Positions 52,009 through 57,885 of a DNA stretch of 64,000 nucleotides are shown piece after piece. Below the pieces are notes generated by a model. It saw nothing but the letters and a program-made list of their open reading frames with translations. It was not told where the DNA came from and ran no database searches. This DNA comes from Kineococcus sp. TRM81007. Lineage in GTDB: Bacteria; Actinomycetota; Actinomycetes; Actinomycetales; Kineococcaceae. Both the position numbers and the translations under genes were made by a program. Each line of letters begins with the position of its first letter. Position 1 is the first letter of the stretch. The stretch is taken from the NCBI RefSeq assembly GCF_022669155.1, contig NZ_JALBVB010000051.1:129601-193600 (forward strand), in the 5' to 3' direction.

Positions 52009-53187
52009 TCAGCGCGAGAGCGCGAACACCGTCGTGCTGCGGTACTCCTCACCGGGGCGCAGCACCGTGGAGGGGAACGTCGGCTGGTTCGGCGAGTCGG
52101 GGAAGTGCTGCGTCTCCAGCGCCAGCCCGTCGCCCTGCCGGTACACCGAACCCGACGTGCCCACCAGGGTGCCGTCGAGGAAGTTGCCGGAGTAGAACTG
52201 CAGGCCCGGCTCGGTCGTGGAGATCGTCAGGGTGCGGCCGCTCGCCGGGTCGTGCAGGGTCGCCGCCTCCTCCAGCTCGTCGGCGGTGGCGCGGTCCAGC
52301 ACCCAGTTGTGGTCGTAGCCCTGCCCGAACAGGATCTGCTGGAACGGCTGGCGGATGCGCGCACCCACGGCGGTGGGGTCGCGGAAGTCCATCGGGGTCC
52401 CCGCCACGGGGGCGATCTCACCGGTGGGGATCAGGGTGGCGTCCACGGGCGTGTAGGCGTCGGCGTGGATCGTCAGCTCGTGGTCGTAGATCGTCCCGGT
52501 GCCCTCGCCCCGGAGGTTCCAGTACGTGTGGTTCGTCAGGTTCACGACGGTGGCGGCGTCGGTGGTGGCGGAGTAGTCCACCGTGAGCTGCGCGAAGCGG
52601 TCCAGGGTGTAGGTGACCTCGGCGGTGAGCGTGCCGGGGTAGCCCTGGTCGCCGTCGGGGCTGACGAGGGTCAGCCGCAGGCCCACGACCTGGTCGCCGG
52701 GCAGCGCCTCCGCGTCCCACACCCGCTTGTCGAACGAGTCGTCGCCGCCGTGCAGGGAGTTCGGGCCGTTGTTCAGCGGGAGCTGGTGCTCGACGCCGTC
52801 GAGGGTGAACCTCCCGCCGGCGATGCGGTTGCCGTAGCGGCCGATGAGCGCACCGAAGTACGGGCCGGGGTTGTTCCCCGCCAGGTAGCCCTCGAGGTCG
52901 TCGAACCCGAGGACGACGTTCTCGACGTTCCCCCGCTCGTCGGGGAACTCCAGGCTCTGGACGATCCCGCCGTAGGTGAGGACCCGCACGGTCACCTCGC
53001 CGTTGACGAGGGTGTACCGCTCGACGGCGGTGCCGTCGGGCAGGTTCCCCCACGCCTCGGTGGAGATGCCGGGGCGCCGGAGGGGGGCAGCAGCCGCGCC
53101 GGTGGCACCGGCCGCGGTGCTCGCCAGCGCCCCGGCCGCGGTGGCGGCCAGCACGACGCTGCGTCGGGTGAAGGTGGGAGAAGGCAT
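52009..53187 (-). CDS. Secreted aldose 1-epimerase (galactose mutarotase)
   Basis: The 392-residue protein has a Tat-like signal peptide ([17 protein letters not shown]) and a full mutarotase fold with [58 protein letters not shown] with the catalytic His, and a late Glu in [18 protein letters not shown]. Export is unusual, since GalM is normally cytoplasmic; secreted forms act on sugars released outside. ATG 53187 has AGGGGA upstream. Its promoter is at 53250-53279. Confidence 0.9.
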
Positions 53188-53249
53188 CTGGTCCCCTGTC
53201 TGAGCTTCCTCGCTCGGGCAGCGGCGGAGCCGCTGCGGTGGCGCTCGGG

Positions 53250-53279
53250 AAACTAGGGGGCCCTCTGCAACGTTGTCAA
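53250..53279 (-). promoter_or_regulatory. Mutarotase promoter with LacI-like CAACGTTG core
   Basis: The minus strand has TTGACA (53279-53274) and TAGTTT (53255-53250), 18 bases apart, a near-consensus housekeeping promoter. The palindrome CAACGTTG, the central pattern of LacI-family operators, overlaps the -35 box and start of the spacer. Promoter is well supported; the regulator is inferred. Confidence 0.6.
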
Positions 53280-53318
53280 CGCACACCGTGACCGGGCCGT
53301 GGCGAGGCGCCGGCCGGC

Positions 53319-53353
53319 GCGCCGGTGCGGTCCGGGCCGGACCGCACCGGCGC
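53319..53353 (-). terminator. Terminator after the debranching-enzyme gene
   Basis: A perfect 15-bp stem (53319-53333 with 53339-53353, loop GGGCC) begins 6 bases after the stop of the glycogen-debranching-type gene. Confidence 0.7.
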
Positions 53354-53359
53354 ACGGGT

Positions 53360-55453
53360 TCACCCGGCGCTGGCCGCCGGTTCCCGCGCGGGCCGCAGCC
53401 CGTCGCCGTCCACGTCCACGCGTTCCTCGCCCGCCGTCAGGCCCGACACCCGCACCCGGCCCCACGACGCCGGCAGCACCGGGTCGCTCTCGACCCGGCC
53501 GTGCGGGGCGCACACCCGCAACCGCAGCAGCGCCGTCAGCAGGCCGATCGGGGTCGCCGCCGCCCACGCCTGCGGCGAGCAGGACGTCGGGTACGGCACC
53601 GGGACCGGCGACTCGGCGCGGTCGAAACCGCAGAACAGCTCCGGCAGGCGACCGCCCGTGGAGGCGCTCGCCGCGAGCAGCCCGGTCGCGACCCGCTGCG
53701 CCGCCTCCACGTGCCCGTAGCGGACCAGGCCCGCCACGGCCAGGGCGTTGTCGTGCGGCCACACCGAGCCGTTGTGGTAGCTGACCGGGTTGTAGCGCGC
53801 CTCCGTCGACGCGAGGGTCCGGATCCCCCAGCCGCTGAACATCGCCGGGGACAGCAGGTGCTGCGCGACCTGCGCGGCCCTGTCGGGGTCCGGCAGGCCC
53901 GCCCACAGGCAGTGGCCCTGGTTCGAGGCCAGCGCGTCCACCTGCTCCTTGCGGCCGTCCAGCGCCAGGGCGTAGCACCCCCGCCCGGGCATCCAGAACG
54001 CCTCGTCGACGGCGCGGCGGAACCGTTCCGCCTTCTCCTCCCAGCCGCGCGCGCCGGCCTCGTCGCCCACCAGGGACGCCAGGTGCGCGCGGGCGGTGAG
54101 GGCCGCGTACACGTACGCCTGGACCTCCACGAGGGCGATCGGCCCCTCGGCGAGCCGGCCGTCGGAGAAGGAGATCGAGTCGGAGGAGTCCTTCCAGCCC
54201 TGGTTCAGCAGACCCCGGTCCGTCTTGCGCCGGTACTCCACGAAACCGTCGCCGTCCAGGTCGCCGTACCGCTCGACCCACTCCAGCGCCCGGTCCGCCG
54301 CCGGCAGCAACGCCCGCACCTCCTCCAGCGGCGCCCCCCAGCGAGCCGCCTCGTCGAGGACCACGACGAACAGCGGGGTGGCGTCGACGCTGCCGTAGTA
54401 CACGCTGCTGCCGCCCAGCGCCCGATCGGCGTCCACCCCGAGCCGCACCTCGTGCAGGATCCGCCCGGGTTCCTCCTCGCTCATCGGGTCGACGCGCCGG
54501 CCCTGGTGGTCGGCGAGGGTCTGCAGGGTCCCCAGCGCCAGGCCGGGGTCGAACGGCAGCGCCAGCCAGCTCGTCAGCAGCGAGTCGCGACCGAACAGCG
54601 CCATGAACCACGGCGCCCCAGCCGCCACCACGTCGGCGCCCGGCCGGCGCGGGTCGGCGATCCGCAGCGCCCCCAGGTCCAGCACGCTGCGCCGCAGCGC
54701 CTGCGCCAGCACCGGGTCCTCGCACTCCACGTCCGGGCTGGCGCGGCGCCGGTCCCGCATGCGCCGCGCGGGGGCGGCGGCCTCCACCGGCCGGTCCAGC
54801 GGGAACGACGTGCCGACCTCCCCCTCCTCGGTGGAGGGCAGCACCTCCACCGTGGTGGACCACTCCCCGTGCGCGGGGACGACCACGCGCCACACGAGGG
54901 CGCCGGGCAGCGCGGTGGCGCCCTGCCCGTGCACGCGCACGCCGCGCCGGCGGCTGCCGCGCGCCACCCCCAGCACCAGGTCCTCGCCCTGACCGCTGCG
55001 CTGCACGGGCGCGCGGCGGGCCACCCGGCCCTCCTTGACGTCGAAGAGGTCCGCGAAGTCGGCCTCCACCGACAGGTGCAGGGTGATGCCGGCCGGTTCG
55101 GTGCCGTGGTTGCGCACCACGACGTCCTCGCGCAGCCCGTCGGCGGCCATGCGGCGCCGCTGCACGACGAGCGTGGCGTCGGCCTGGCCCGGCCGCGGCG
55201 CGGCGCGCGTGGTGAACACCGCGGAGAACGGCTCGGGCACGGCCACGCTCAGCGGCTGCAGCGGTTCGTCGTCCAGCAGCAGCTGCCAGCCGGACACGAC
55301 GCGGGTGTCCTGGAAGAACACCCCGTGCGGGCGGTCCGGGCGCATGTCGCCGGTGCTGTCGCTCACGCAGAACGAAGCGCCCTCGACGAGGGTCACGTCA
55401 CCGCCGGGCGAGGCCGGGGGGAGGTCCTGCGGGGTTCCCGTCGAACCGTTCAC
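53360..55453 (-). CDS. Amylo-alpha-1,6-glucosidase-type (GDE) family protein
   Basis: The 697-residue protein has an N-terminal beta domain of the GDE_N type (about 20-215; ASFCVSDSTGDMRPDRPHGVFFQDTRVVSGW, quoted in part) and a C-terminal (alpha/alpha)6 barrel with APWFMALFGRDSLLTSW, GLLNQGWKDSSDS, YNPVSYHNGSVWPHDNALA and SCSPQAWAAATP. The acidic residues sit where this clan places its catalytic acids. True substrate is uncertain. Its start overlaps the glycosyltransferase stop (GTGA), so it is the second gene of the CIRCE operon. Confidence 0.87.
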   Translation of the reverse strand: MNGSTGTPQDLPPASPGGDVTLVEGASFCVSDSTGDMRPDRPHGVFFQDTRVVSGWQLLLDDEPLQPLSVAVPEPFSAVFTTRAAPRPGQADATLVVQRRRMAADGLREDVVVRNHGTEPAGITLHLSVEADFADLFDVKEGRVARRAPVQRSGQGEDLVLGVARGSRRRGVRVHGQGATALPGALVWRVVVPAHGEWSTTVEVLPSTEEGEVGTSFPLDRPVEAAAPARRMRDRRRASPDVECEDPVLAQALRRSVLDLGALRIADPRRPGADVVAAGAPWFMALFGRDSLLTSWLALPFDPGLALGTLQTLADHQGRRVDPMSEEEPGRILHEVRLGVDADRALGGSSVYYGSVDATPLFVVVLDEAARWGAPLEEVRALLPAADRALEWVERYGDLDGDGFVEYRRKTDRGLLNQGWKDSSDSISFSDGRLAEGPIALVEVQAYVYAALTARAHLASLVGDEAGARGWEEKAERFRRAVDEAFWMPGRGCYALALDGRKEQVDALASNQGHCLWAGLPDPDRAAQVAQHLLSPAMFSGWGIRTLASTEARYNPVSYHNGSVWPHDNALAVAGLVRYGHVEAAQRVATGLLAASASTGGRLPELFCGFDRAESPVPVPYPTSCSPQAWAAATPIGLLTALLRLRVCAPHGRVESDPVLPASWGRVRVSGLTAGEERVDVDGDGLRPAREPAASAG

Positions 55454-56601
55454 GCCGACACCCCCCGCTCCCGCAGCCGGCGCAGCGACGCGCGCGGGGC
55501 GGTCAGGGCCCGCACGCTGCGCTGCCCCTCGACGATCGAGCGGAACAGCCGCTCGTACCCGGCCGCCATCACCGGCAGGTCGAAGTTCCGCTCCGCGTGC
55601 CGGCGGCAGGCGGCCGGGTCCAGGTCGGCGGCCAGCGACAGGGCGGCGGGGAAGTCGGCGGGGTCGCGCACCACCAGCCCGCTGCGGCCGTGGTCGACGA
55701 CCTCCGGGACGCTGCCGCGCGGCAACGCCACGACCGGTGTGCCGCAGGCCATCGCCTCGATCATCACCATGCCGAAGGGTTCCTCCCACTGGATCGGGAA
55801 CGCCAGCGCACGGGCGCTCGCGAGCAGTTCCCGCTTCAGGGCCGCGTCGGCCTCGCCGACGTACTCCGCGTCGCGGCCCAGCCGCGGGCGGACCTCCCGC
55901 TCGAAGAACTCCCGCTCGGCCGGCTCGCTGCGCTTGCCCGCCAGCACGATGCGCAGGCCTGCGGCGCGCGCGGCGTCGATCGCCAGGTGGGGACCCTTGT
56001 CGGGGCTGAACCTGCCCAGCCACAGGACGTGGTCGTCCTTGTCGGCCCGGAACGGGAAGCTCGACACGTCGATCGCGTTGTGCACGCGCCCCACCCAGTT
56101 GATGCCGGGGTTCAGGCGACGCTGCGCGTCGGAGATGGCGACGACGTCGACGCTGTCGCCCAGGGCGGCGAAGTACTCGCCCTGCTCGCCGTCGACGGGA
56201 CCGTGCATCGTCACGACGGTGGGCACGCGGCGCCCGCGCGCCAGCAGCGGCCCGGCGAGGCTGTGGTCGTGCACGACGTCCACGTCCAGGTCGGCCAGGG
56301 CGGCACCGGCGGCGGCGGCGTGGATCACCTCCGGCGCCGGGGTCCCCAGGCGCTCGGACGGGGGTTCGTCGAACACCCGCACGAAGCGGGCGGCGCGGGT
56401 GCGGTGGTGGCCGGAACCCACGAGCGTCACCTCGTGCCCGCGCTCCGCGAGGGAGTCGACGAGATCGGCGACGACGGACTCGATGCCGCCGTACCCGCGC
56501 GGCGGCAGCTCGAACCAGGGCGGGGCGACCACCGCGATGCGCAGGGTGTCGCGCGGTGCACGGGCGGGACGCGGGATCGGCGGAGCGTCGGAGACGGTCA
56601 C
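55450..56601 (-). CDS. Glycosyltransferase family 4 protein behind a CIRCE element
   Basis: The 383-residue GT-B protein has an N-terminal acceptor domain with VAVVAPPWFELPPRGYGGIESVVADLVD and a C-terminal donor domain with VLWLGRFSPDKGPHLAI, VLAGKRSEP and the E-x7-E motif in EEPFGMVMIEAMACGTPVVAL. Acceptor and donor are unknown. GTG 56601 is chosen because GGAGG lies 5 bases upstream; the frame stays open to 56769 but that part is not family-like. It is translationally coupled to the debranching-type gene. HrcA control is predicted from the upstream site. Confidence 0.87.
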   Translation of the reverse strand: MTVSDAPPIPRPARAPRDTLRIAVVAPPWFELPPRGYGGIESVVADLVDSLAERGHEVTLVGSGHHRTRAARFVRVFDEPPSERLGTPAPEVIHAAAAGAALADLDVDVVHDHSLAGPLLARGRRVPTVVTMHGPVDGEQGEYFAALGDSVDVVAISDAQRRLNPGINWVGRVHNAIDVSSFPFRADKDDHVLWLGRFSPDKGPHLAIDAARAAGLRIVLAGKRSEPAEREFFEREVRPRLGRDAEYVGEADAALKRELLASARALAFPIQWEEPFGMVMIEAMACGTPVVALPRGSVPEVVDHGRSGLVVRDPADFPAALSLAADLDPAACRRHAERNFDLPVMAAGYERLFRSIVEGQRSVRALTAPRASLRRLRERGVSA

Positions 56602-56769
56602 GTTGTCCTCCAGCGACGGGCTCGGGGCAGCACGCGGCTGCCCGGGTGGGTCGCTGACGGCACCGCAGGGTGCGGCGCCGCAGCTCGGGGCTGCCGCGCC
56701 ACGCCGCGCGGCGGGGAGGGTCGCGCACCGGTGCGGCGCCCTGGTGGGCGGCGCACCGCGCTGCCCCAT

Positions 56770-56799
56770 CTATTAGCACTCCGGGGCGCCGAGTGCCAA
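56770..56799 (-). promoter_or_regulatory. CIRCE element (HrcA operator) overlapping a promoter
   Basis: Reading the minus strand, TTGGCACTC, 9 bases, then GAGTGCTAA (56799-56773) matches the CIRCE consensus TTAGCACTC-N9-GAGTGCTAA with one substitution. TTGGCA also serves as a -35 box and TAATAG (56775-56770) as a -10 box, 18 bases apart, as in groES promoters. It faces the glycosyltransferase gene, with a leader of about 160 bases. Confidence 0.88.
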
Positions 56800-56818
56800 G
56801 AGGTGCGCCGCGGGAACG

Positions 56819-56857
56819 ACGACGCCGCGCGTCCCCCGTGGGGACGCGCGGCGTCGT
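56819..56857 (-). terminator. Terminator after hemB
   Basis: A perfect 18-bp stem (ACGACGCCGCGCGTCCCC at 56819-56836 with 56840-56857) and a 3-base loop begin 18 bases after the hemB stop. It insulates the haem operon from the CIRCE promoter. Confidence 0.8.
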
Positions 56858-56874
56858 TCTCGCCCGGAGAGGCC

Positions 56875-57885
56875 TCAGCCCAGCCAGCGCTGCGCGGCCT
56901 CCAGCGCCCAGTACGTCAGCACGACCTGCGCGCCGCCGCGGCGCAGCGCCAGCAGCGACTCCAGCGCCACCCGCTCGCGGTCGATCGCGCCGGCCTGCGC
57001 GGCGAACTCGACCATCGCGTACTCGCCGGAGACCTGGTAGCTCGCCACCGGGACGTCGGCGACGTCCGCGACCGCGCGCAGCACGTCCAGGTACGGCAGG
57101 CCCGGCTTGACCATCACCAGGTCCGCGCCCTCGTCCAGGTCCAGGCGCAGCTCGCGCAGCGCCTCGGCGACGTTCGCGGCCGGGTCCTGCTGGTAGGTGC
57201 GCCGGTCCCCCGTGAGCTGCGAGTCCACGGCCTCGCGGAACGGGCCGTAGAACGCGCTGGCGTACTTCACCGCGTACGCGAGCATCGCCACGTCCTCGCG
57301 GCCGGCGTCGTCCAGCACCGCGCGCAGGTGCCCGATCTGGCCGTCCATCATGCCGCTGGGCCCCAGCAGGTGCGCGCCCGCCGCGGCCTGCGCCAGCGCC
57401 ATGGACGCGTAGCGGTCCAGGGTCGCGTCGTTGTCCACGCGGCCGCGCTCGTCGAGCACGCCGCAGTGGCCGTGGTCGGTGAACTCGTCCAGGCACAGGT
57501 CGGCCATGACGACGAGCTCGTCGCCGACCGCCTCGCGCACGTCCGCCAGGGCGACGTTGAGGATCCCGTCCAGGTCGTCGGCGCCCGAGCCCACCGCGTC
57601 GCGCGACGCGGGCACGCCGAACAGCATGATCCCGCCCAGGCCGGCGGCCACGGCCTCCTTCGCCGTGGCCACCAGGGAGGCGCGGGTGTGCTGCACCACA
57701 CCCGGCAGGGTGCGGATCGGCTGCGGCTCGGCGGCGCCCTCGCGCACGAACACCGGCAGCACCAGGTCGGAGGGGTGCAGGTGCACGTCCGTCACCAGCC
57801 GACGCATCCCCGGCGTCGCGCGCAGCCGGCGCGGGCGCACCGGCAGCGCCGGCACCGCCCGGCGGGACGGCTCCAGGCCGCTCAC
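56875..57885 (-). CDS. hemB: Porphobilinogen synthase (5-aminolevulinate dehydratase)
   Basis: HemB joins two 5-aminolevulinates to porphobilinogen. The 336-residue protein has the two Schiff-base lysines, Lys207 in YAVKYASAFYGPFR and Lys260 in VMVKPGLPYLD. The active-site metal segment reads DLCLDEFTDHGHCG, with Cys131 and Cys141 but Asp133 at the middle position, between the Zn (Cys3) and Mg (Asp) types. It overlaps the hemD stop by 4 bases and ends the rex-hemACDB operon. Confidence 0.97.
   Translation of the reverse strand: MSGLEPSRRAVPALPVRPRRLRATPGMRRLVTDVHLHPSDLVLPVFVREGAAEPQPIRTLPGVVQHTRASLVATAKEAVAAGLGGIMLFGVPASRDAVGSGADDLDGILNVALADVREAVGDELVVMADLCLDEFTDHGHCGVLDERGRVDNDATLDRYASMALAQAAAGAHLLGPSGMMDGQIGHLRAVLDDAGREDVAMLAYAVKYASAFYGPFREAVDSQLTGDRRTYQQDPAANVAEALRELRLDLDEGADLVMVKPGLPYLDVLRAVADVADVPVASYQVSGEYAMVEFAAQAGAIDRERVALESLLALRRGGAQVVLTYWALEAAQRWLG

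Follow-up and report, generated by a model that had tools for sequence, protein, structure and literature searches.

Why would a heat-shock operator stand in front of a pair of sugar genes? The HrcA repressor and its operator, the controlling inverted repeat of chaperone expression (CIRCE), are mostly described as a simple circuit that serves chaperonins and their partners under heat shock. Here we analyzed a 64,000-nucleotide stretch of Kineococcus sp. TRM81007 (contig NZ_JALBVB010000051.1, positions 129,601 to 193,600; hereafter the window), in which a predicted CIRCE site lies upstream of two genes encoding a GT4 glycosyltransferase and a debranching-type glycoside hydrolase (GH). Judging from sequence comparisons, it is likely that this operon is controlled by HrcA, which would repress it until heat releases it; less surely, the operon would make and trim an alpha-glucoside.

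The putative operator, TTAGCACTC-N9-GAGTGCCAA, is located at positions 56773-56799 and reads TTGGCACTC-GGCGCCCCG-GAGTGCTAA in the direction of the operon (reverse strand), with one mismatch to TTAGCACTC-N9-GAGTGCTAA, which we took to be the CIRCE consensus and used as the yardstick. No other site in the window matched at three or fewer mismatches, and none of 100 dinucleotide shuffles of the window (0/100) contained such a match. The site is placed between hemB and the operon, 75 nt beyond the hemB stop, and a leader of 171 nt (56602-56772, reverse strand), which ends in a GGAGG ribosome site recognized by eye, separates it from the GTG start (56601) of the GT4 gene (55450-56601, reverse strand; GT-B). 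This start was picked via the ribosome site and alignment to relatives, and an in-frame ATG at 56769, immediately past the CIRCE, was rejected. The GH gene (53360-55453, reverse strand; GDE_N_bis and MGH1-like domains) begins with a GTG that overlaps the GT4 stop, the two sharing 4 nt (GTGA).

The same genome contains one hrcA match (PF01628, 182 bits against a cut-off of 22.2) and, at three or fewer mismatches, six CIRCE-like places, of which the window site is the closest to consensus. The other five precede groES-groEL and groEL2 (2 mismatches each), hrcA-dnaJ (3 mismatches), an Hsp20 gene (3 mismatches; L011:3051-3077) and an FmdB-type zinc-ribbon gene (3 mismatches; L009:3108-3134), and the GT4-GH operon is the sole one of the six without a chaperone-type gene. 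A reversed-pattern control on this genome returned one site at three or fewer mismatches; therefore, one of the 3-mismatch sites could be due to chance, which is far less likely for a site with a single mismatch. The initial annotation had claimed a one-mismatch CIRCE upstream of a GT4 glycosyltransferase and a debranching-type glycosidase, which the pattern scan and the shuffles bear out; its emphasis on a sugar operon "instead of" a chaperone operon was wrong, since the same genome has CIRCE at chaperone genes too.

Having characterized the site in its own genome, we looked at its occurrence in other families. In a sample of Pseudonocardiaceae, the GH was found at E <= 1e-150 in 66 of 297 genomes (79 matches), from which the best 30 matches were taken and the 29 with at least 70% identity tallied. 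GT4 lay directly upstream of GH in 22 of these 29 loci, and CIRCE (0-2 mismatches) was present in 21 of the 22; in the remaining operon (L163:176-202), the CIRCE is damaged by a 1-nt deletion in its right arm. None of the seven Pseudonocardiaceae GH copies lacking a GT4 within 1.5 kb had CIRCE at three or fewer mismatches. A 4-mismatch CIRCE remnant was seen directly before a GH without adjacent GT4 (L159:1339-1365), and the sites of L163 and L159 look like decaying CIRCE. Most Pseudonocardiaceae loci also share, by eye, a conserved TTGCC about 24 nt ahead of the CIRCE.

A class-wide sample, in which GT4 was detected at E <= 1e-95 in 42 of 394 genomes (46 matches), extended this distribution to G483, G677 and three genomes of one genus (G669, G758 and G475). 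The GroES of G475 agrees with PDB 1HX5, which we take to be Mycobacterium tuberculosis GroES, at 96 of 99 aligned residues (hand count), and the genus was therefore taken as mycobacterial. Within it, GT4 occurred at E <= 1e-120 in 29 of 248 genomes (34 matches), and 27 of the 30 loci taken from these 34 matches carried CIRCE; two of the three CIRCE-less loci also lacked an adjacent GH. The usual order there is CATAAT adjoining the CIRCE and overlapping its first T (in most loci), a purine-rich ribosome site, GT4 and GH, the promoter and ribosome site being recognized by eye. In G483, a Jiangellaceae-type genome, a perfect CIRCE stands about 410 nt ahead of the conserved GT4 start; its family has GT4 in 2 of 22 genomes and CIRCE in one of those two. 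G677 has a 1-mismatch CIRCE before a GT4 without adjacent GH (L176:1343-1369), so the operator can accompany GT4 alone.

A GH profile scan of genome contigs gave 581 confirmed stretches, of which the best 80 were taken. For 48 of these 80 loci (a hand count, with several contigs ending early), the vicinity of the GH held a GT4 match (E <= 1e-4). The two CIRCE sites among them, in Amycolatopsis thermalba (perfect) and Saccharothrix carnea (2 mismatches), are each directly upstream of GT4. The flanks of the 80 loci held no match (0/80, E <= 1e-4) to the Hsp20 of the Kineococcus genome. One contig, labelled as a Bifidobacterium breve metagenome-assembled genome (L112), encodes a GH 53% identical to that of the window, for which a binning error is possible. 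The CIRCE-GT4-GH operon of S. carnea is divergent from a gene whose DivIVA match is marginal (28.1 bits against 28; L117:5748-6668), and by eye a similar protein follows a 1-mismatch CIRCE and a MerR gene in Saccharothrix sp. ALI-22-I (L126:1-1500, reverse strand), where GT4-GH is absent from the 3-kb stretch; CIRCE may thus also control a DivIVA-like gene.

How good are these operators? Among 51 distinct CIRCE-GT4 loci, 27 had no mismatch, 20 had one and 4 had two. In the 27 mycobacterial and 21 Pseudonocardiaceae loci, conservation was 96-99% in the arms, 69-70% in the spacer and 49-59% in the flanks, figures to be read with the caveat that a set selected for matching CIRCE necessarily shows conserved arms. 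However, protein similarity was the sole criterion for choosing the loci that gave the 21 of 22 and 27 of 30, so selection on the arms at GT4 loci is the natural reading of these alignments. No CIRCE in the genome came closer to consensus than the GT4 site in six genomes chosen for carrying it. In A. thermalba, only the GT4 site is perfect; the five sites of S. carnea all have 2 mismatches. Base-shuffled upstream regions gave 0 sites in 12,100, after a pre-filter that passes over any site with damage in both of its GCA/TGC cores, and reversed-pattern controls in two sets of six genomes gave 0 sites at two or fewer mismatches in each. A chance origin of the site was ruled out by the dinucleotide and base shuffles together with the reversed-pattern controls.

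We then considered what the two enzymes might do. In a phmmer search of the PDB, the GT4 matched tll1591 of Thermosynechococcus at 2.3e-64 (runner-up, 1e-25), and a fold search with its AlphaFold2 model (pLDDT 88) was also topped by tll1591 (TM 0.79/0.88). This protein, the glucosylsucrose synthase TeGSS (PDB 7FG9, 7FGA and 8X3Q), is an alpha-1,2-glucosyltransferase, and its donor and catalytic residues Trp10, Tyr18, Arg179, Lys184, Trp254 and Glu256 are retained in the window GT4; the TeGSS paper (PMC9909042) gives both Glu256 and Glu265, of which 265 aligns as Ser, so 256 was used. The Pseudonocardiaceae and mycobacterial copies for which this motif is shown have Tyr at the Trp10 position. 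For the GH, the domain matches (PF14742, 149 bits; PF22422, 83 bits; PF06202, 36 bits) and the modelled fold identify a glycogen-debranching-type glycosidase. Its nearest solved relative is the archaeal-type amylo-alpha-1,6-glucosidase of Thermococcus gammatolerans (7VMA; 1.4e-80), which is also the best fold match to the GH model; the GH is about 30% identical to 7VMA, from which its linkage specificity is not deducible. Second in fold is GH63 YgjK, one entry of which contains a 2-O-alpha-glucosyl sugar (i.e., an alpha-1,2-glucoside), and a GH cutting such a linkage would suit its GT4 partner.

Several observations weigh against a heat-induced, HrcA-controlled alpha-glucoside operon. At E <= 1e-60, the Kineococcus genome is the only one of 12 family genomes with the GT4 (0/11 relatives), which leaves no orthologous upstream region for comparison in the family sampled. 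Motilibacter deserti and G458, the nearest relatives with a GT4-GH pair (GT4 74-76% identical), show no CIRCE there, although copies of it are found at the groEL and Hsp20 genes of M. deserti, the Hsp20 site being about 12 kb from the CIRCE-less operon. CIRCE was present at four or fewer mismatches in 2 of the best 80 of 581 GH loci (1.26 Mb) and at 0-1 mismatches in 6 of the best 30 of the 46 class-wide GT4 matches, window included. Weak promoter-like hexamers, TTGGCA (56799-56794) and TAATAG (56775-56770), are legible by eye as TTGGCA-N18-TAATAG (56799-56770, reverse strand), with TAATAG a poor match to consensus, and a sigma-70 consensus scan of 56550-56900 returned no promoter. By eye, the CATAAT of most mycobacterial-genus loci and the TTGCC of most Pseudonocardiaceae loci make more convincing promoter-like elements than these hexamers. 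On the enzymatic side, Glu74, Arg117, Thr119 and Asn122 at the rim of the TeGSS acceptor cavity are replaced by His, Pro, Asp and Gln (Tyr70 and Tyr97 fall in alignment gaps), and sucrose-phosphate synthase (TIGR02472) scored above cut-off in 0 of 15 actinobacterial genomes and 1 of 14 controls. Because the acceptor residues differ and this synthase was not found, the operon probably makes something other than glucosylsucrose itself, and the GT4 is probably a glucosyltransferase of the tll1591 kind with a different acceptor.

These points bear on the strongest alternative, namely that the operator is real but minor, in a possibly recently acquired operon where HrcA just lowers basal expression and heat tolerance is uninvolved. 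The operon is patchy in its own family and was perhaps acquired; a GH match at 44-46% identity occurs in 4 of 10 same-genus genomes. The absence of GT4 from all 11 family relatives, the CIRCE-less nearest relatives and the lack of a consensus promoter in the window would all fit such a minor role. Against it, the site recurs in further families, where its arms are conserved, and it is kept in nearly all of the Pseudonocardiaceae and mycobacterial-genus loci taken; we consider this alternative unlikely. Of the earlier proposals, overlap of the CIRCE with a -35/-10 pair was not confirmed, given the empty scan and the poor TAATAG. Conservation upstream of orthologues held up, with CIRCE at 51 of the 98 distinct GT4 loci (a set enriched through searches aimed at particular families and genera), though with none in the nearest relatives. 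The 98-locus tally was made after dropping 23 duplicates of places already represented, 15 of which had been dropped before the 51-locus count. The central proposal, CIRCE governing a pair that makes and trims a glycan, is supported by recurrence in several families, the one hrcA and the best site in the genome.

The patchy distribution raises the question of how the operator came to be there. Trees were built from chosen rows (62 for GH, by a quick method, and 71 for GT4). In the GH tree, the window groups with Motilibacter, Cellulomonas, Microbacterium and others, all CIRCE-less, apart from the Pseudonocardiaceae CIRCE clade. A single origin of the CIRCE-operon pair, with the window placed in the Pseudonocardiaceae-containing clade, was rejected in this tree (approximately unbiased test, p 0.0005, an optimistic value because the group was picked after viewing the quick tree). 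The GT4 tree requires 7 changes of CIRCE state, 6 of them forced by starred branches; such changes do not separate gain from loss. On a simple reading, CIRCE was gained once in the Pseudonocardiaceae-mycobacterial clade, where some members later lost it (Nocardia, L163 and L229), and was gained independently in the window lineage, in G483 and in G677; an ancient CIRCE with many losses, or operator transfer, are possible alternatives.

Within the window's GT4 clade (12 loci), eight loci without CIRCE carry an HspR-like MerR gene beside GT4-GH (e.g., L043:721-1023 and L052:10226-10492; also L015, L018, L045, L091, L100 and L172) and two carry neither; for the remaining two, the window and G483, CIRCE is present and the sequence examined showed no MerR gene of this kind. 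Over all 98 distinct GT4 loci, with GT4 matches below 300 bits excluded and flanks short in many loci, 48 had CIRCE only, 8 MerR only, 3 both (all Pseudonocardiaceae) and 39 neither. This complementarity is suggestive of a regulator swap, in which an HspR-like MerR protein would replace HrcA. It might also be taken to place the operon in the HspR branch of heat-shock control in actinobacteria, with CIRCE secondary. The eight MerR-bearing loci favor this idea, but the two MerR proteins tested, though most like HspR, scored 69 and 77 bits against the NCBIfam HspR cut-off of 105, and the window showed no MerR gene of that kind, its best match covering 29 residues at E 0.006. HspR-associated inverted repeats (HAIR), with CTTGAGT-N7-ACTCAAG as the presumed consensus, were likewise scarce at two or fewer mismatches, with none in L170 (the upstream side of the window operon), none in the 30 class-wide loci and one in the 80 GH loci (L108). 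Membership of the HspR branch is therefore very improbable.

Least credible of all is that the inverted repeat is an RNA hairpin or hemB terminator with a coincidental CIRCE likeness: it is able to fold and lies shortly past the hemB stop, but hemB is already followed by a separate 18-bp hairpin ahead of the site, the repeat lacks a T run and its folding reaches a z of only -1.9 (10 of 200 shuffles equally good), it also precedes GT4 where the gene further upstream is a different one, and the window shuffles contained no such repeat. A role as terminator or hemB leader was rejected on this folding evidence.

The operon is flanked by hemB (56875-57885) and an aldose 1-epimerase open reading frame (52009-53355). 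Stretches with an 18-bp hairpin lie in the interval between hemB and the CIRCE (56810-56870, reverse strand; z -6.6) and directly past the GH stop (53300-53362, reverse strand; z -4.8); both are without a T run, and a search for classical terminators found none at either. The former may insulate the operon from hemB. Since the two hairpins bracket the GT4-GH genes, the pair looks like an independent operon. The epimerase gene just downstream, which has a twin-arginine-like leader by eye, sits behind a strong hairpin and is probably a separate unit.

The groES-groEL and groEL2 sites of the Kineococcus genome are paired, with second CIRCE-like copies of 4 and 5 mismatches (L007:2823-2893 and L008:3197-3258). 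CIRCE before Hsp20 was also seen in two mycobacterial-genus genomes (L241:1501-1527 and, by eye, L239:1501-1527) and in M. deserti (L130:1501-1527). The FmdB-type protein is of the Rv0991c/Ruc kind and may, by analogy, act like Ruc. CIRCE also precedes FmdB/Ruc-type genes in the mycobacterial genus (L247:1501-1527) and in two Pseudonocardiaceae genomes (L138:1501-1527 and L242:1501-1527), identified by family search for L009 and L247 and by eye for L138 and L242; such genes are apparently a recurrent HrcA target.

According to a study of M. tuberculosis, HrcA directly represses four genes there, three of the Hsp60/Hsp10 family and ruc (Rv0991c) (PMC7448276). The Kineococcus genome resembles that regulon in having CIRCE at groES-groEL, groEL2 and an FmdB/Ruc-type gene, and differs from it in that the targets described in that study include no glycosyltransferase or glycosidase. 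HrcA touching glycan genes is not wholly new, since work on Helicobacter pylori (PMC6843607) and Lactobacillus plantarum (PMC3842655) describes how loss of HrcA (or CtsR) alters LPS-modifier genes, or genes for sugar transport and capsule. These effects, whether direct or indirect, were seen as altered transcripts of mutants from other phyla, whereas here CIRCE recurs before one orthologous operon. Among the open-access titles and abstract openings listed, there was no report of HrcA/CIRCE on a glycosyltransferase or debranching-type gene. The operator and repressor are thus known ones, and the target is of a new, recurrent type.

Mechanistically, HrcA would bind the site and block transcription of the operon at normal temperature. 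Heat or misfolded protein would inactivate HrcA and turn the operon on, together with GroES/GroEL, Hsp20, the FmdB/Ruc-type protein and HrcA-DnaJ. With less certainty, GT4 might then move glucose, probably from UDP-glucose and probably in an alpha-1,2 linkage, onto some acceptor, and GH might remove or trim glucose, giving a small stress glucoside of adjustable level. By analogy, this product could be a protective saccharide, as the initial annotation had supposed. Glucosylsucrose is a stress sugar of cyanobacteria, and a 2006 FEBS J title reportedly credits it with a "possible function as thermoprotectants". According to the TeGSS paper (PMC9909042), salt and heat stress raise the levels of sucrose and glucosylsucroses 4-20 fold.

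More broadly, and tentatively, we propose that the HrcA regulon of Actinomycetota has a second arm that is not protein-based, a thermoprotectant alpha-glucoside (probably alpha-1,2) that the GT4-GH operon would make and recycle once heat sets it free. Heat-shock control of the operon might have been wired more than once, by CIRCE or perhaps by an HspR-like MerR protein. In several genomes, the CIRCE closest to consensus belongs to the sugar operon and not to a chaperonin. If the proposal is true, one repressor would couple protein-folding help with a small-molecule glucoside, and heat-shock regulation and compatible solutes, usually separate fields, would become linked. It would also provide a direct handle on a stress metabolite in actinobacteria, as well as a natural case of apparently repeated operator gain.

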